Source of the DNA: Actinomycetes bacterium
GTDB taxonomy: Bacteria > Actinomycetota > Acidimicrobiia > Acidimicrobiales > JAMCPL01
NCBI GenBank assembly: GCA_021841005.1
Contig: JAKBVZ010000023.1
Coordinates: 26,903-90,902 of the forward strand
DNA: 64,000 nucleotides
Reading direction: 5' to 3'
Part shown: positions 26,754-39,629 of the stretch, one piece after another
Numbering within the stretch: the stretch's first letter is position 1
Layout: each line of letters begins with the position of its first letter
The notes under the pieces: model-generated
What the model saw: the letters and a program-made list of their open reading frames with translations, nothing else
The model's database searches: none
Told to the model about the DNA's origin: nothing
Made by a program: the position numbers and the translations under genes

Positions 26754-26885
26754 ACTGTAGAGGCGTGTCTAGGGTTCCGTTGCAGGGCATTTCCTGCAGG
26801 TCTGGTCCGAGAGGCACAGGTGATCGATGACTTTCCATCCTCACTCCACGGCGGGATAAAAGCCCGGGAGATCGCTGAGAACAGT
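26754..26885 (+). promoter_or_regulatory. Guanidine-I (ykkC) riboswitch
   Basis: Conserved core CTAGGGTTCCG ... GGTCTGGTCCGAGAGGCAC ... CACGGCGGGATAAAAGCCCGGGAGA; possible closing pairs ACTGT (26754-26758)/ACAGT (26881-26885). Confidence 0.93.
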
Positions 26886-26930
26886 TGCTGCTCGGCGAGA
26901 TGCCGGGCAGCCCGATTAGTGGAGGTTAGC

Positions 26931-28049
26931 ATGATGCCGGAATTATCATATGGAAGGTACGGACCGGAAGCGGCGAGAGCGGTTGAAGCGGAGAGCCATC
27001 TTCCTTCCACCCAGTATGAGCTGGAGGTGGCAAGAGGGCTGGAGCTGGGACTTCCAGGTGCAGACAGTATTGTGGACAGGAGGATACCCACCTTTTCCCG
27101 GGGAGAACTCCCTCACTTCGCCGGAATCAACACTTTTTTGAAGGCTCCATACCTGGAAGACGTGCGTTCCTGTGGTGAATATGATGTTGCCATACTGGGT
27201 GTGCCCTTTGATGGTGGCACAACTTACCGGTCGGGGACCCGTTTCGGACCCCAAGGCATACGTAAGATATCTGCATTGTATGGTCCTTACAGCTTCGAAC
27301 TCGGCGTGGATCTGAGAGAGTCGATCACCATGTGTGATCTCGGTGATGTATTCACCATACCGGCAAATATCGAGAAGACCTTCGACCAGATCACCAAGGC
27401 AATATCGCATGTCTATTCTTCGGGAACTTTCCCGGTGGTGCTGGGAGGTGATCATTCCATCGGGTTTCCGACGACCAGAGGGGTCGCCCGCCACCTGGAC
27501 GGAAATCTTGGGATCATCCATTTTGACAGGCATGTGGATACCCAGGACACGGATCTGGACGAGCGCATGCACACCACGCCGTGGTTTCACGCTACGGATA
27601 TTCCGAATGTGCCACCGAAGAACCTGGTCCAGTTGGGGATTGGAGGATGGCAGGCTCCGCGTCCGGGAGTGAAGATCGGTCGGGAACGGGGTACCACGAT
27701 TATGACGGTAAACGATTGCGTGGAGATGGGTATCGAGGCAGCGGCCGAGCGTGCCCTCGAGGTTGCCTGGGAGGGAGCGGAGGCGGTATGGCTGTCCTTT
27801 GACATTGACTGCCTGGATGCAGCTTTCGTGCCGGGGACCGGCTGGCCTGAGCCAGGAGGATTCCTTCCCCGAGAGGTGCTCAGATTGATCCAGCTGATTG
27901 CCCAAAAGCCGTTGGCGGGGATCGAGATTGTCGAGTGTTCCCCGCCTTACGACAACGCGGAAATCACCTCGCTCATGGCTACAAGAGTCATATGTGACAC
28001 CCTCGGTTGCTTGGTAAGGGCAGGGCACCTGCCGGGAAGGGGGAACTGA
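26931..28049 (+). CDS. Ureohydrolase (agmatinase/arginase family), candidate Ni-dependent guanidine hydrolase (GdmH-like)
   Basis: VLGGDHSIGFPTTRG, IIHFDRHVDTQDTDLDERMHT, SFDIDCLDAAFVPGTGWPEPGGF; SD GGAGG at 26921-26925; listed ORF start 26820 lies inside the riboswitch. Confidence 0.88.
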   Translation: MMPELSYGRYGPEAARAVEAESHLPSTQYELEVARGLELGLPGADSIVDRRIPTFSRGELPHFAGINTFLKAPYLEDVRSCGEYDVAILGVPFDGGTTYRSGTRFGPQGIRKISALYGPYSFELGVDLRESITMCDLGDVFTIPANIEKTFDQITKAISHVYSSGTFPVVLGGDHSIGFPTTRGVARHLDGNLGIIHFDRHVDTQDTDLDERMHTTPWFHATDIPNVPPKNLVQLGIGGWQAPRPGVKIGRERGTTIMTVNDCVEMGIEAAAERALEVAWEGAEAVWLSFDIDCLDAAFVPGTGWPEPGGFLPREVLRLIQLIAQKPLAGIEIVECSPPYDNAEITSLMATRVICDTLGCLVRAGHLPGRGN

Positions 28050-28052
28050 GCA

Positions 28053-29597
28053 ATGACAATGATCAGCGACAAGTTTCCTTCCCAAGTCGATGGAGCCAGT
28101 GTAGCGGTAGGAGAACAGCCCGACGATGCGCATGTGAGGTTGCATCGCAATAGGGCAGGACATGGACATGTGGTGGCACAAGGCATAATAGCCAATGGTC
28201 CCTTGCTCTGCATGGGGGCGGTACTGACATCTGCCGCCATCTATGCGCAGGGTGCGCTTCCTCTTGCTTACCTGCTCGGTGCAGGGCTGGTATGGTTGTG
28301 GGTCAATACTCCGATGCAGTACTCGAAGAAGCTGGCCAGCTCGGGAGGAATGTTCTATTTTGTCAGCAAGGGAGCCGGTACTTACCTGGGGTACCTCGCA
28401 GGATTGTGCTATGCGCTCTACTATACAGCGTTTCTGGCTGGTGGAGCAGTCTACTTTGCGGTGATGGTGCAGTCAATGCTGGCGCAGTTTGGGGTACATT
28501 CCGTACCAGGATGGCTCTGGGTGCCTTTGACGCTGGCTATAATTGTACCTCCCGGGATACTCGTATACAGAGGAGTGCTGCCCTCATTGCGGTATGGGAT
28601 AATTGCCGGCCTAGTGGAGATCCTGCTGATGCTGATTACCAGTATTGTCATCGTGGCATTGGCAGGGCATAACAACACGGCGAGCGTGTTTACGCCGGCC
28701 TTCGCAAAGACTGGCATGTCAGGGATAGGAGTGGGCTTGCTACTTGCAGCTTTCGGGATGTCCGGATCGACGGCGACCATCTTCCTGGGCCATGAGGCCA
28801 AGCTCCCTCATCATGCTGTACGCAGAGGGCTGGTGCTTTCCACCGCAGCGGTGGCGGTCATCATGGTCTTTGTTGCTTACGCTCTTACCATCGGATGGGG
28901 TCCCACTCATATGGCGACGTTTGCAAACTCCAGCATTCCTGGATTGCTCGTGATTCACAAGTATATGGGCAGCGGCGTGGAACTGGTGATCGCAGTGTTC
29001 ATGGCAAACAGTATCGCCAGCGCCATTATCGCATCTACGCTGGTGGTGAGCCGGGTAACGCATGTGATGTCCATGGCGGGCCTGTTCCCGAAACGCTTCA
29101 AGGAAGTGGACCAAAAGAGCGGCACGCCGAGGGCGGCCGTACTTGCCTGCCTGGGAACCGCTGCAGCTGGTGCAATTGTCGCAGGGATGATCTGGGGACC
29201 GGTGACGGCTTTTACCGTGCTGATACTTGTAGCTACAATGGGAGAATTTGTAGGGCATATCCTTGGCAATCTCGCACTGCCATTTTTTGCTCATAGCCGG
29301 CACATGGTACGTGTTGTGGTACATGTTGTATTGCCCATGTTTTCTCTCGTCACAATCGGAATCGGGATCTTTTATACCTTTTTCCCGGTGGTGGTACCGC
29401 TCATCTGGGGACCGGTCATATTTCTGATAGGACTTGGCCTGGGAACGGTATTTTACCTCTTCAAGCATATGTCTACGGATGCCGAAGGTCGTGCAGCGTT
29501 GAAGGCGCTCGTATCCAGGTTGGGCCTGGATACGGGGGACGGGATGGGTTCACCTGTTGTGCCGTCCTTACCGCACTGTGCCAGCGTACAGGAGTAG
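28053..29597 (+). CDS. APC family amino acid/amine permease, candidate guanidine importer
   Basis: About 12 TM; SSGGMFYFVSKGAGTYLGYLAG APC-like block; 3-nt gap to preceding ureohydrolase. Confidence 0.85.
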   Translation: MTMISDKFPSQVDGASVAVGEQPDDAHVRLHRNRAGHGHVVAQGIIANGPLLCMGAVLTSAAIYAQGALPLAYLLGAGLVWLWVNTPMQYSKKLASSGGMFYFVSKGAGTYLGYLAGLCYALYYTAFLAGGAVYFAVMVQSMLAQFGVHSVPGWLWVPLTLAIIVPPGILVYRGVLPSLRYGIIAGLVEILLMLITSIVIVALAGHNNTASVFTPAFAKTGMSGIGVGLLLAAFGMSGSTATIFLGHEAKLPHHAVRRGLVLSTAAVAVIMVFVAYALTIGWGPTHMATFANSSIPGLLVIHKYMGSGVELVIAVFMANSIASAIIASTLVVSRVTHVMSMAGLFPKRFKEVDQKSGTPRAAVLACLGTAAAGAIVAGMIWGPVTAFTVLILVATMGEFVGHILGNLALPFFAHSRHMVRVVVHVVLPMFSLVTIGIGIFYTFFPVVVPLIWGPVIFLIGLGLGTVFYLFKHMSTDAEGRAALKALVSRLGLDTGDGMGSPVVPSLPHCASVQE

Positions 29598-29621: not shown

Positions 29622-29924
29622 ATGAGGCTTAGCCCGCACGAACAAGAGCGGCTCATGATATACCTGGCTGCGATAGTTGCTCGTGATCGCCGCGAACGCG
29701 GCCTCGAGCTCAATTACCCTGAAGCAGTCGCCTTGCTCTCCTCTTTTGTACTCGAAGCGGCTCGTGACGGGCAGTCGGTGGCTGACTTGATGGAGCGAGG
29801 TAGGCATGTGCTGGGCCGCGAGGACGTAATGGAAGGTGTACCCGAGATGATACCCGAGATGCAGATCGAGGCAACTTTTCCAGATGGGACAAAGCTTGTG
29901 ACCCTGCACTGGCCGATACAATAG
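29622..29924 (+). CDS. ureA: Urease gamma subunit
   Basis: [40 protein letters not shown] ... [28 protein letters not shown]. Confidence 0.96.
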
Positions 29925-29926
29925 AT

Positions 29927-30319
29927 GTGCGGCGTAGAGCGTGCATGCCGGATGGAAGGTGGTGGAATGTGATACCTGGTGAGGTGCTGGTGGGCGATAC
30001 TCCCGTTACGATTAATTGTGGCTGTCCGAGCATCCGATTGACGGTGCGCAATAATGGTGACCGTCCTGTGCAGGTTGGTTCACACTACCATTTCAGCGAG
30101 GCAAATCCGGCCCTGGATTTTGATCGGGATGCTTCCTGGGGAAAGCGGCTCAATATACCTGCCGGCACTTCGGTCCGTTTCGAACCGGGGATATCCAGGG
30201 AGGTGGAACTCATTCCGCTGTCGGGTGGAAGGGTGGTTCCAGGACTCCGGGGGATGTGCGGCGGGCCTTTGGACGATCGAGTGGATACTCATACGAGCAA
30301 CCGAGGGTGGTCTGAGTGA
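29927..30319 (+). CDS. ureB: Urease beta subunit (true start probably internal at IPGEVLVGD)
   Basis: [52 protein letters not shown]. Confidence 0.95.
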
Positions 30320-30386: not shown

Positions 30387-32096
30387 ATGATCGAGATTGG
30401 CAGGGAGCGGTATCGAGCGCTTTACGGGCCTACGACTTGTGACAGGATCCGCCTTGCGGATACAGATCTGTTCATCGAGGTCACTGAGGACCTGTGCGGC
30501 AAAGGTGATGAGGCTGTTTTCGGGGGCGGTAAGGTGATCAGGGAATCCATGGGTCAGTCCATGGTAACCAGGGCTCAGGGAGCTCCAGACCTTGTGATTA
30601 CAGGAGCGATCATCCTTGATCACTGGGGTATCGTCAAGGCGGATGTAGGCGTGCGTGATGGTCGGATAAGCGCTATCGGTAAGGCAGGCAATCCTGACAT
30701 CATGGATGGGGTCGATCCTGCTCTCGCCATCGGGCCGTCCACCGAGATTCTTTCCGGCAATGGCAAGATCCTCACTGCCGGCGGCATCGATTGCCACGTA
30801 CACCTTGTCTGCCCTCAGCTGGTCGGAGAGGCGCTCGGAGCGGGGATCACGACCCTTATCGGGGGTGGTACCGGTCCTGCGGAGGGAACCAAAGCGACTA
30901 CCGTCACTCCGGGGGAGTGGAATGTCGCAAGGATGCTGGAAGCCATGGATTCCATGCCCGTAAACGTACTCTTGCTTGGCAAGGGCAATACGGTTTCCAC
31001 CGAAGCCCTGCGGGAACAATTGAGAGCAGGTGTGGGGGGATTCAAGGTCCATGAGGACTGGGGTGCCACTCCTGCAGCGTTGGACGCTTGTCTACAGGTG
31101 GCGGATGAATATGGCGTGCAGGTGGCGCTGCATTCCGATACGTTGAACGAGGCGGGATTTGTGGAAAGTACGATCTCGGCTATAGCGGGTCGGGCCATAC
31201 ATGCATACCATACCGAAGGCGCCGGAGGCGGCCACGCGCCGGATATAATCACTGTTGCCGGCTTACCCAACGTATTGCCATCGTCTACTGATCCTACCCG
31301 TCCCTATACGGTAAACACCATCGATGAACATTTGGACATGTTGATGGTGTGTCATCATTTGAATCCCGCAGTGCCCGAAGATCTGGCTTTTGCAGAGAGC
31401 AGGATAAGGCCATCGACCATCGCTGCTGAAGATGTACTGCATGATTTGGGGGCGATATCAATGATAGGTTCCGACTCGCAGGCCATGGGTCGTATCGGAG
31501 AGGTCCCCCTGAGGACCTGGCAGACCGCACATGCCAACAAGTTGCGCAGGGGATCACTGCCAGGAGATGGACATTCCGACAACAATAGGGCGAAGCGATA
31601 TATTGCGAAGTATACTATATGTCCTGCTATGGCGCATGGGCTGGAAGGCGAAGTCGGGTCAGTCGAGATCGGAAAGCTCGCTGACCTGGTCCTGTGGGAT
31701 CCGGCCTTCTTCGCGGTCAGGCCTCATGTTGTCCTGAAGGGCGGGATGGTTGTTTGGGCCGTCATGGGAGATCCAAACGCGTCGATACCGACGCCCCAGC
31801 CGGAATTGCCCCGCCCTATGTGGGGGGCGGCTCCTGGAGTGGCAGCTCACACCGGTGTGAATTTCGTAGCGCCTGCAGCCTCCGAAGTGGGACTTGGCGA
31901 GAGGCTTGGGCTGAGCAAGCCAGTGGTTGCTGTTGCGGATGTCAGGAAGCGGAGCAAGTCCAGCATGCCCAACAATGACGCATTACCCCGGATAGAGGTG
32001 GATCCGGATAGCTTTGCCGTGAGGATCGATGGGGAGCTTGTCGATGTAATGCCGATGGAGACATTGCCGATGACTCAAAGGTATTTCCTGTTTTGA
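30387..32096 (+). CDS. ureC: Urease alpha subunit
   Basis: [25 protein letters not shown] (carbamylated Lys), LMVCHHLNP flap Cys/His. Confidence 0.97.
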
Positions 32097-33091
32097 CTGA
32101 TTATCCTTCGCAAGTTGGGATGGAGCGGCTTGAGGATGGTGGCTGGCGTGACGATGGTGATATTTTGGGGTCCCCTACTGGCAGCCGGCATGCGGTATGC
32201 TCACCCTTGCCTGGCGCGTGCATCGGTCTTACTGGGCGGGATGGGGGTCATTACATCGGTCAGGATGGAGATCGTTACACGAGGAAGGGTATCGAGCTAT
32301 ATACCACCCAGGACGGGGACCAGCGCGGCACTGGCCACGTTGCACCTGCAATCCGGGGAACATCTGCAGCATTTCTCCTGGCTGACGGCAGGTTTCCGGC
32401 AGGCGGCCATGCTCACTCAGGGGGCGTGGAGGGGGCTGTAAATGATGGACTGCTGCGAGACCTGGTGTCTCTACGGGATTTCCTCGAGGGTCGGCTGCGG
32501 ACCGCAGGGCTGGTCTTTGCCGCCCTTTCTTCAGCATCCTGGATTATGGCCATGAGGTGCAAGCCGCAGAGATCAGCCGGCAGCATATCGTTGAAGCATA
32601 TATCATTCGAGGAATGGTCTTTGCTTGATGCCGAGGCGGATGCACGTCTTGTATCGCCTTCCTTGCGGCGCGTATCGAGAGCGCAAGGACGCCAGCTCTT
32701 GCGCAGTGCCGCCGTTGCATGGCCGTCGCCGTTGCTGGATGGGCTTGCCGGTGAAATTGACGGTGGCCCGCATCACTCGATTGCGATGGGTGCATGTGCT
32801 GCTGTTGCGGGCCTTACCATAGAGGAGTCTGCACTCGTGGCGGCATACGGATCTATTTCCGGCCCTGGGTTTGCGGCGCTCAGACTGCTCGGATTTGATC
32901 CGGCACAGGTATCCTCGGTAGTCGCGGATCTCACCGGCGCTGCCGATCAGGTGGCGATGTCGGCAATGAACGCCGCCAGAGATGCAGCTACGGTGGGGCA
33001 GTGGATCCGGCTTCCCGCTCCGGCGTCACCGTTGCTGGATTATTATGCTGAAAGCCATGCCGGGGAGGAGGTGCGTCTCTTTGCATCTTGA
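32093..33091 (+). CDS. ureF: Urease accessory protein UreF (N-terminal extension uncertain)
   Basis: [23 protein letters not shown]; overlaps ureC stop. Confidence 0.85.
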
Positions 33092-33107
33092 AGGGAGTCA
33101 ACCAGCG

Positions 33108-34043
33108 ATGGGAGAGCATGCAGATCATGCCAGCGGCACCGTAGGCGACGCGTACGAAGGTTGCTTTTACCAGACTAGCGATGCAGGCGGTGCGCGTAGT
33201 GCAAGCGATGCAGGCGGTGCGCGTAGTGCAAGCGATGCAGGCGGTGCAAGCAGTGCAGGCGGTGCAGGCGGTGCGCGCAGTGCAAGCGATGCAGGCGGTG
33301 CAAGCAGTGCAGGCGGTGCCTGCGTGGCCGAACCAGTGCTGCTCCACGACCACGACCACGACCATGACCATGACCATGACCACGACACGTACTCCCAGCG
33401 CAAGGGAGATGCGCAGCCCAGCCCAGTACGGGCGGGTAGCCGGCAAGGACCATTCCGTATTGGCATAGGCGGTCCCGTAGGCAGCGGCAAGACCGCATTG
33501 GTGGCATCCTTATGCCGTCAATTGGCCAGCAACTTGAATCTAGCTGTGGTGACCAACGATATCTACACCACCGAGGATGCGGACTTTCTGAAGCGCGCCG
33601 GCGTGCTTGCCGAAGAAAGGATCGTTGCAGTGGAAACCGGCTGTTGCCCGCATACGGCCATAAGAGATGACATTGCGGCCAACCTCGAGGCCATTGAATT
33701 CCTGGAGGACCGCTTTCCGGGTCTCGACCTCGTTCTTGTAGAGAGCGGTGGGGACAACCTGACAGCTACTTTCAGCTACGGCCTGATCGATGCCCAGATT
33801 TTTGTACTGGATGTATCGGGTGGAGATAAAGTGCCGCGTAAAGGAGGACCTGGTGTTACTATGTCCGATCTGCTGGTCATCAATAAGGTTGACTTGGCGG
33901 AGATGGTCGGCGCGGATCTCTCCGTGATGAGATCTGATGCAGTATCCAAGAGGGGAGATCGTCCTGTCATCATGTGCTCGCTGCGCAGTACGGGCGGCGG
34001 CCAGGAAGTGGCTTCCTGGGTGCGCGGGATTCTCCGGACATAA
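33108..34043 (+). CDS. ureG: Urease accessory GTPase UreG with repeat-rich and His/Asp-rich N-terminal extension
   Basis: [52 protein letters not shown]-term SDAGGARSA repeats and [14 protein letters not shown]. Confidence 0.95.
33176..33320 (+). repeat. Imperfect 27/15-bp repeats encoding (S)DAGGARSA / GGASSAGGA in ureG
   Basis: AGCGATGCAGGCGGTGCGCGTAGTGCA-type units repeated. Confidence 0.9.
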
Positions 34044-34082: not shown

Positions 34083-34949
34083 ATGCAAGCGCATTCACGA
34101 GTCTCGGTGAGCATTTCAGCAGATGGAGTCCTTCGTTACGATAGGTTGCGGTCGCAAGTGCCATTGTTGCTGAGGCCCACTCCCTGGGGGCTGTACCTTG
34201 TTGGCGGAGCTGCCGGTCCGCTCGGTGGCGACGATCTTGCATTGGAGATTGAGGTGGGATGCGGTGCTTCACTTGTTGTCCGTTCAGCTGCCGCCAGCCT
34301 GGCGCGGCGAGGAGTCTCGCAAAGGGCTTCTGAATTTTCCGTAAATGTACATCTTGCCCCGGATGCTTCGCTGTACTGGATGCCCGAGCCTGCAGTGGCG
34401 TGTGCAGGTTGTAATCATCATGTAGAGGTGCGGGTAGAGATGGACGCCGGCGCTGGTCTCTACTGGAAAGAAGAACTCGTACTTGGTAGGTACGGCGAAG
34501 GTCCGGGAGTTTGGACTTCAGGGTTATCCGTGGATTATGGCGGCAAGCCTCTGGTTCGCCATATGCTGCCGGTAGGTACACCAGGATGGGATGGGCCCGC
34601 CGTAATCGGAGACGGTGGCTCGGTAGGTTCTCTCCTGGCAGCCGGCTCCATGGCGGTAGACTCCATCCCGGCGGCCGGCTATCCGGCGGCCGGTTACCCC
34701 ATTCCTGAGATGCGCTTGTCCGCGCTATCGGTGGAGAGTGGCGGTGATTACGGTAACAGCCCTGCCGGCGGCCCTGCCGACAAAGCCAATTACGTGCGCC
34801 TGGAAGATTCCTGTGGTGTGCTGGCAAGGGGAACGCTCATGCGTCTTGCCAGCCCGGGGACCATGATCAGCGCCATTGGGCGAGACCTGATGGCTGTGAG
34901 GCGTGTGATTGATATCTTGACCGTCATGGCGACCAGATCGTGTTCCTAG
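34083..34949 (+). CDS. ureD: Urease accessory protein UreD
   Basis: Position at end of ure cluster; YDRLRSQVPLLLRPTPWGLYLVGGAAGPLGGDDLALEIEVGCGASLVVRSAAAS. Confidence 0.9.
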   Translation: MQAHSRVSVSISADGVLRYDRLRSQVPLLLRPTPWGLYLVGGAAGPLGGDDLALEIEVGCGASLVVRSAAASLARRGVSQRASEFSVNVHLAPDASLYWMPEPAVACAGCNHHVEVRVEMDAGAGLYWKEELVLGRYGEGPGVWTSGLSVDYGGKPLVRHMLPVGTPGWDGPAVIGDGGSVGSLLAAGSMAVDSIPAAGYPAAGYPIPEMRLSALSVESGGDYGNSPAGGPADKANYVRLEDSCGVLARGTLMRLASPGTMISAIGRDLMAVRRVIDILTVMATRSCS

Positions 34950-37757: not shown

Positions 37758-39629
37758 CTATGACTGGCGAACCTGGCTGCCCTTACTACTTCTGTTTCCA
37801 TGACCGCCAACGTTGCAGTTCTCCTCTTCGACACTGCCGGCGGCACCGTTCCCGTGGTTGCACACCAGGCTCAAGGATTGCCTTACTGCAGTAGGCACGG
37901 GACATGCCTCCTTGGAGATCACGATTCGATCCCACCGTGCCGTGATGCCCGCCGTATCGTGCATCCGTTCGACGTCGCGCACCTGTGACGGCTCGACAAG
38001 GGCTACTACCGTACCGGATGCTCCTGCCCTGGCTGTACGTCCGGAACGGTGCAGGTAGTCCTTGTGGGTGCTGGGCGGATCAAAGTGTACTACGAGGCTG
38101 ACATCGTCCACATGTATACCTCGTGCTGCGACATCAGTTGCTACGAGGACGCGTGGCCGGCCTGCAGCAAAGCTCGACAGCGCGCGTTGACGCTGGTTCT
38201 GGCTGAGATTGCCGTGGATGGAGGTGGAGTCCACTCCCGCACGGGTAAGCTGCTTCGCCAATCTATCTGCTCCGTGTTTCGTCCGTACGAAGAACAGGGT
38301 CCGCTCCGGGCGTGCAGCGATTTCAGCCGCCAGTGTGACTTTGTCCTGTGCGGGCAGGACGAGTGCGCAGTGTTCTGCCGCTTCTACAGCTGAGTTAGCG
38401 GTCGCGACTGCGTGTATGGCAGGGTCAGAAAGGTAAGTGCGCATGAGCCGCTCCACATCTCGGTCCAGAGTGGCAGAGAAGAACATCCGCTGCCCGATTG
38501 CCGGCGTAGCATCCAGTATACGCGTGACTGACGGAAGAAAGCCAAGGTCGGCCATGTGGTCAGCCTCGTCGAGCACTGTAATTTCCACGGAATCAATCCT
38601 GCAGGCACGGCGTTCGAGCAGGTCAATGAGCCGGCCTGGCGTGGCGACAACTATGTCCGTTCCTCGCCGTAGGCGGTCCATCTGCCTGCCTATGGGCGCA
38701 CCGCCGTATACCGTGGTCACCCGGATGCCAACCTCGCTACCGAGCGGAGCGAGCACGTCAGCCACCTGTTGCGCCAATTCGCGGGTGGGAACGAGGACCA
38801 AGCCACGCGGTGTCCTTGCTTTCACCTCTCCTGCAGCGGCTAGGCGTGCAATCATCGGAAGGCCGAAGGCGAGGGTCTTGCCCGATCCGGTCTGTGCCCG
38901 GCCCAGCACATCCCGGCCTGAAAGGGCATCCGGCAGGGCGCTTGCCTGGATTGCGAAGGGCGCGTGGATACCGCTCCTTCCAAGGGCTGAAACGAGCGAT
39001 GGGGTAAGTCCGCACTCGGCGAATGTGGTTACGATCGGTGCTGTTGCGTCCAGTGCGTTGTCCAGGGAGTCTTCCAGGGAGCTGCCCAAAGGGTTTTCCC
39101 GAGCTACCGCTCCTGTATCTTGGTGTTTTACGGCGCTGCGGCGATCGGCGAACTGCCTTCCGGCATTGCCTGATGTCCTGCTCGTACCCGACCCTGTACC
39201 TGCAAATGCCGGCTTGGGTCCGTTGCGCCTGCCTGACCGTTCACCGGCGCTGCCTGACTGACTGCCTGCACCTGCGAATGCTGGCTTGGGTCCGTTGCGC
39301 CTGCCGGGCCGCCTGCTACTGGTACCGCCTGCTGTGCCTGTACCCGACCCTGCACCTGCGAATGCTGGCTTGGGTCCGTTGCGCCTGCCGGGCCGCCTGC
39401 TACTGGTACCGCCTGCTGTGCCTGTACCCGACCCTGTACCTGCGAATGCTGGCTTGGGTCCGTTGCGCCTGCCGGGCCGCCCGCTGGAGCTAGTGTCTTG
39501 TCCGCCATCTCCGAAAGCAGGTGTCGAGGAGCGGCGATTGGCGGACCGCTGGGATCTTATACGAAAGGACGCGCGCTCGCGCCCTGCAGTATCTGGCATG
39601 GTATTACTCCATAGTAGTTCGTTGGCCAC
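37758..39629 (-). CDS. DEAD-box RNA helicase with repetitive basic N-terminal tail
   Basis: AQTGSGKT, PTRELAQQ, VLDEADHMADLGF, SATLD, HRSGRTARAG; N-term GRRNGPKPAFAG repeats. Confidence 0.93.
   Translation of the reverse strand: MANELLWSNTMPDTAGRERASFRIRSQRSANRRSSTPAFGDGGQDTSSSGRPGRRNGPKPAFAGTGSGTGTAGGTSSRRPGRRNGPKPAFAGAGSGTGTAGGTSSRRPGRRNGPKPAFAGAGSQSGSAGERSGRRNGPKPAFAGTGSGTSRTSGNAGRQFADRRSAVKHQDTGAVARENPLGSSLEDSLDNALDATAPIVTTFAECGLTPSLVSALGRSGIHAPFAIQASALPDALSGRDVLGRAQTGSGKTLAFGLPMIARLAAAGEVKARTPRGLVLVPTRELAQQVADVLAPLGSEVGIRVTTVYGGAPIGRQMDRLRRGTDIVVATPGRLIDLLERRACRIDSVEITVLDEADHMADLGFLPSVTRILDATPAIGQRMFFSATLDRDVERLMRTYLSDPAIHAVATANSAVEAAEHCALVLPAQDKVTLAAEIAARPERTLFFVRTKHGADRLAKQLTRAGVDSTSIHGNLSQNQRQRALSSFAAGRPRVLVATDVAARGIHVDDVSLVVHFDPPSTHKDYLHRSGRTARAGASGTVVALVEPSQVRDVERMHDTAGITARWDRIVISKEACPVPTAVRQSLSLVCNHGNGAAGSVEEENCNVGGHGNRSSKGSQVRQS

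Follow-up and report, generated by a model that had tools for sequence, protein, structure and literature searches.

We describe here a putative guanidine-degradation cassette in a 64,000-nucleotide stretch of DNA (hereafter the window; contig JAKBVZ010000023.1, assembly GCA_021841005.1) from an uncultured actinobacterium of the order Acidimicrobiales, in which a guanidine-I (ykkC) riboswitch precedes a ureohydrolase gene, gdmH, that is followed by genes for an APC-superfamily permease and for urease with its accessory proteins (ureABCFGD; Table 1). Judged by its sequence, gdmH very likely encodes a guanidinase, homologous to the nickel-dependent guanidine hydrolases GdmH/Sll1077 of Synechocystis and the guanidinase of Nitrospira inopinata. 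As an enzyme it is unremarkable within the guanidinase family described between 2021 and 2024; the operon is a modest but useful variation on known guanidinase loci. The genome is a 2.45 Mb draft, 94% complete, and the genome-wide statements made below derive from searches of the assembled sequence.

The assignment of gdmH draws on sequence identity, phylogeny, diagnostic residues and metal ligands, scores below the agmatinase cut-offs, and the upstream riboswitch. In alignments, its product is 81% identical to the N. inopinata guanidinase (PDB 9fek; Palatinszky et al. 2024, PMC11410670), which is also its best PDB match at 703 bits, and 68% identical to Synechocystis Sll1077/GdmH (PDB 7esr, 7oi1; Wang et al. 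2021, PMC8390497; 570 bits); the next PDB match, proclavaminate amidinohydrolase (PAH), drops to 184 bits. An earlier reading of the window made from the sequence alone (the sequence-only reading) had proposed a guanidine hydrolase of the cyanobacterial lineage rather than an agmatinase. We find that the enzyme does share a clade with Sll1077/GdmH, but that its nearest characterized relative is the N. inopinata enzyme.

The phylogeny which that reading had called for was run as a maximum-likelihood tree of 59 sequences, including SpeB, guanidinobutyrase, guanidinopropionase, PAH, arginase, HutG and the metformin hydrolase MefH along with ureohydrolases from the same order. The gdmH product falls with both characterized guanidinases in a clade of 36 members with 100/100 support and a long stem (1.93), and SpeB, guanidinobutyrase, guanidinopropionase, PAH and arginase all lie outside it. 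Long outgroup branches leave the order of the outgroups among themselves unsure, and the guanidinase clade itself is unaffected. Every published diagnostic residue is present: the rule for calling guanidinases, T105, H222 and W313 in N. inopinata numbering (PMC11410670), corresponds to T98, H214 and W305 here, and N. inopinata E344 to E335. The metal motif that the sequence-only reading had quoted, HFDRHVDTQDTDLDERMHT, and the segment following it, SFDIDCLDAAFVPGTGWPEPGG, occur exactly as given, and all six metal ligands are kept (H175, D199, H201, D203, D291 and D293). Within the tree set, Trp305 and Arg200 (the Arg of HFDRH) are found in every member of the guanidinase clade and in no other sequence compared. 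The reading frame is open throughout, with an ATG start at 26931 and a GGAGG ten bases 5' of it; an alternative, longer start, GTG 26820, falls within the riboswitch.

Generic annotation would instead read the gdmH product as an agmatinase of the SpeB type or as one of the other ureohydrolases that act on guanidino acids, for example guanidinobutyrase or guanidinopropionase. These enzymes do belong to the same Pfam family, PF00491, and the top NCBIfam scores come from agmatinase models, yet those scores lie below the models' own cut-offs (TIGR01230, 161.3 versus 174.3 bits; PRK02190, 215.9 versus 302 bits); the cut-offs for formimidoylglutamase and arginase are likewise not reached. That both true guanidinases have PDB entries titled 'agmatinase 2' lends the name some currency, but the agmatinase, guanidinobutyrase, guanidinopropionase and PAH groups, from which the tree separates this protein, carry Thr at the position of Trp305 and Ala at that of Arg200, and a guanidine riboswitch stands 5' of the gene. 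We regard a function of this kind as highly improbable. The gdmH gene is the sole ureohydrolase gene found in the genome.

The guanidine riboswitch, which the sequence-only reading had also invoked, is borne out by an Rfam match above the gathering threshold and is the single copy found in the genome. By our proposed scheme, the riboswitch would sense guanidine and switch on gdmH; read-through would, very probably, extend this control to the permease and to the only urease of the genome with its accessory proteins. The permease would take up guanidinium, the guanidinase would hydrolyse guanidine with release of urea and ammonia, as its characterized homologues do, and the co-regulated genes could thereby carry guanidine through urease to three ammonia and CO2.

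We consider it probable that the urease is under riboswitch control, with a single transcript and induction of urease by guanidine inferred from the co-directional, tight spacing of the genes, the lack of a clear terminator and the conservation of their order in related cassettes. All genes from the riboswitch to ureD lie on one strand, with successive gaps of 3, 24, 2 and 67 nt and then a 4-nt overlap, and terminator-like and promoter-like patterns within the cassette are not clearly above chance. The adjacency to urease noted in the sequence-only reading is not immediate, as the permease gene separates gdmH from ureA. The order riboswitch-gdmH-APC-ureABCFG recurs in three related cassettes (L002, L003/L119 and G002/L118), two of which (L003 and G002) are placed in the same genus as the window; each has a guanidine-I riboswitch above threshold, and their permeases are 83-84% conserved. 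In L002, ureD lies upstream and is divergent. The unit behaves as a cassette, in that none of the genes flanking it in the window turned up next to any of these three relatives.

Alternatively, the guanidinase may be genuine and the urease a mere neighbour with its own promoter, outside guanidine control. Among 80 named related loci, urease is mostly either not seen beside gdmH or upstream of the riboswitch: no urease was seen in the available flanking DNA of 67 (flank short in about 20), and in six actinobacteria it precedes gdmH on the same strand. Against this reading stand the 3- and 24-nt spacing across gdmH-APC-ureA with no clear terminator, and the same order kept in three related cassettes whose flanks differ from those of the window. 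Outside the genus, L047 (Dehalococcoidia) and L059 have urease directly after gdmH, and in a relative from the order (L127) a riboswitch, an ABC ATPase gene, gdmH and urease all share one orientation.

The leader provides a further argument for an independent urease, since its expression platform shows no clear switch in folding. A candidate hairpin would pair GCCCGG (26862-26867) with CCGGGC (26903-26908) and UCCAC (26845-26849) with GUGGA (26919-26923), the last arm overlapping the GGAGG Shine-Dalgarno sequence (26921-26925), and the unconstrained fold of the leader hides part of this site. Covariation in favour of the competing hairpin is weak, amounting to two double-change pairs in just four related leaders, barely above shuffles. 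When aptamer P3 was forced in constrained folding, the Shine-Dalgarno sequence was not freed in the window, and the outcome varied among relatives; there is also no U-run terminator at the hairpin. Riboswitch control may therefore fade out short of the urease genes. The permease likewise tempers the scheme, as it shares only 27% identity over 164 amino acids with the comammox APC permease, itself a putative guanidine transporter, and no relative of it was found in the PDB. On balance we hold an independently expressed urease to be a real but clearly less favoured possibility than riboswitch control.

The published accounts consulted place urease genes outside guanidine riboswitch control, and our literature search, outside which most subscription papers lay, returned no report of urease within a guanidine-riboswitch operon. 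The cassette is a candidate exception in placing urease behind this riboswitch. The N. inopinata locus is similar in that its guanidinase has all of the diagnostic and metal residues in common with the enzyme described here, a guanidine-I riboswitch and an APC-superfamily permease share one cluster with it, and no nickel chaperones are adjacent; there, however, the permease gene comes ahead of the guanidinase gene and its product is only remotely related within the APC superfamily, and urease is encoded elsewhere, outside riboswitch control. Synechocystis GdmH shares clade, residues and guanidine-I riboswitch control, whereas the cyanobacterial operon includes hypA/hypB-type nickel chaperones and an ABC transporter, with urease again elsewhere. 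Closer to home, actinobacterial loci such as those of Dactylosporangium (L004) and Phytohabitans (L012) have guanidinases 85-89% identical to this one directly downstream of a guanidine-I riboswitch, but these are followed by an ABC-transporter ATPase in place of the APC permease, and urease is upstream of the riboswitch or absent from the available flank. MefH (PMC11399263) belongs to the same superfamily of nickel-dependent ureohydrolases, but is heteromeric, has other active-site letters, falls outside the guanidinase clade and has hypA/hypB in its operon.

Table 1. Features of the gdmH-urease cassette (positions in the window).
Feature	Position	Strand	Evidence
Guanidine-I (ykkC) riboswitch aptamer	26758..26872	+	Rfam RF00442, 77 bits (gathering 63), E 6e-12
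Candidate expression platform, hairpin using aptamer 3' core	26845..26925	+	Fold z-score -3.3; 0/200 shuffles as stable
gdmH, guanidine hydrolase (very likely guanidinase), 372 aa	26931..28049	+	Pfam PF00491 267.9 bits; identity; tree; residues
HFDRHVDTQDTDLDERMHT, residues 197-215: metal ligands D199, H201, D203; clade-specific R200, Q205; H214	27519..27575	+	
SFDIDCLDAAFVPGTGWPEPGG, residues 289-310: metal ligands D291, D293; guanidine-specificity W305 (role from PMC11410670)	27795..27860	+	
APC-superfamily permease, putative guanidinium importer; begins 3 nt past gdmH stop	28053..29597	+	PF13520 78.9 bits, PF00324
ureA, urease gamma	29622..29924	+	PRK13241, above cut-off
ureB, urease beta (start 29927 or 29969)	29927..30319	+	PRK13203, above cut-off
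ureC, urease alpha	30387..32096	+	PRK13206 1080.8 bits
ureF, urease accessory protein; start uncertain, 4-nt overlap with ureC	32093..33091	+	PF01730 69.7 bits
ureG, nickel GTPase, HypB/UreG family; start uncertain, conserved core from ~33447	32982..34043	+	TIGR00101 272.8 bits, PF02492
ureD, urease accessory protein	34083..34949	+	PF01774 81.2 bits

Two further genomes of the genus (67% and 91% complete), and one from a sister genus (85% complete), have neither gdmH nor ureC. Another genome of the order (G014) has two guanidinase genes on different contigs (L104 and L089). On a plasmid of Rubrobacter indicoceani (L128, 7980-15397), genes for a sodium:solute symporter, formamidase and urease come after a guanidinase 65% identical to that of the window; the transporter near guanidinase and urease is there of a different type. 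The ureC gene of the cassette is the sole UreC gene found in the genome. A match to the Rfam model 5_ureB_sRNA on the minus strand within it (30539-30831) was dismissed as probable coding conservation because L002, L047, L119 and L127 have it at the corresponding place, also antisense to ureC. Elsewhere in the window, 84-bp tandem repeats occur on the minus strand (39265-39485) in the 5' part of an open reading frame resembling a DEAD-box helicase.

As guanidinases of this family require nickel, we also considered how the metal may be supplied. The sequence-only reading had seen no HypA/HypB-like chaperones in the window; we too find no dedicated genes of this type (GhaA/GhaB) there, and the statement holds genome-wide for HypA and true HypB, with no HypA found in the draft and no HypB above cut-off. 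Matches to the HypB model correspond to UreG and MeaB. Such an absence beside the guanidinase gene has already been published for N. inopinata, and the nickel-loading route of comammox guanidinases is stated as unknown (PMC11410670). Searches of the genome for UreE and a NicO-type nickel transporter found neither, and ten additional genomes drawn from the order and the genus gave no HypA above cut-off. More widely, HypA is missing from 16 of 36 named guanidinase genomes, including the complete chromosome of Dactylosporangium fulvum; where its region was examined (12 genomes), HypA is on a contig that differs in length from the gdmH contig, or 4 Mb away. The guanidinase-bearing Nitrospira genomes L045, L046, L051, L060, L061, L065 and L067 have a HypA-family gene elsewhere in the genome, a point to set beside the published view that an obvious dedicated nickel-loading protein is missing from comammox genomes. 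Within the cassette, the 5' part of the ureG frame (33177-33386) holds 27-bp repeats encoding SDAGGARSA-like units and then an HD repeat; this His-rich N-terminal stretch is possibly a nickel store in place of UreE. It is shorter in L002, and L003 and L118 have none.

Purely as a hypothesis, and as an addition to the guanidinase assignment rather than a rival to it, UreG of the cassette, with UreF and UreD, might load nickel into the guanidinase in place of the HypA/HypB-type chaperones of cyanobacteria. UreG is a HypB-family GTPase, and the absences just described, together with the open comammox route, would fit such a role. UreG is present in 22 of 23 HypA-less guanidinase genomes, although the presence of urease alone predicts UreG; the remaining genome, a Nitrospira metagenome-assembled genome (L077, G093) with neither HypA nor UreG detected, is either an exception to the co-occurrence or incomplete. 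Across the order, UreG is found in 8/8 gdmH genomes versus 5/51 others (Fisher p ~6e-7; 2e-5 by genus; relatedness not corrected). This co-occurrence is expected because urea must be broken down, and is compatible with, but not proof of, UreG serving the guanidinase. Furthermore, UreG usually acts in a urease-specific complex, the N. inopinata enzyme acquires some nickel in E. coli without a co-expressed chaperone (PMC11410670), and the searched genome is a draft. We accordingly view the role of UreG in guanidinase loading as speculative, and the fuller proposal, in which the riboswitch controls both urease and guanidinase and the maturation of the two nickel enzymes falls to UreG together with UreF/UreD, as slightly more doubtful still.

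Guanidinase genes are routinely named agmatinase, and generic annotation would do so here; with the function assigned here, what is predicted for this uncultured actinobacterial genus is growth on or use of guanidine instead of the breakdown of polyamines or arginine. One switch could govern the entire route from guanidine to ammonia. By setting a guanidinase next to UreFGD where the genome yielded no HypA or HypB, the cassette also makes the nickel-loading question testable, and shared maturation by UreG, if true, would explain how guanidinases of the comammox/actinobacterial branch obtain nickel without HypA/HypB.
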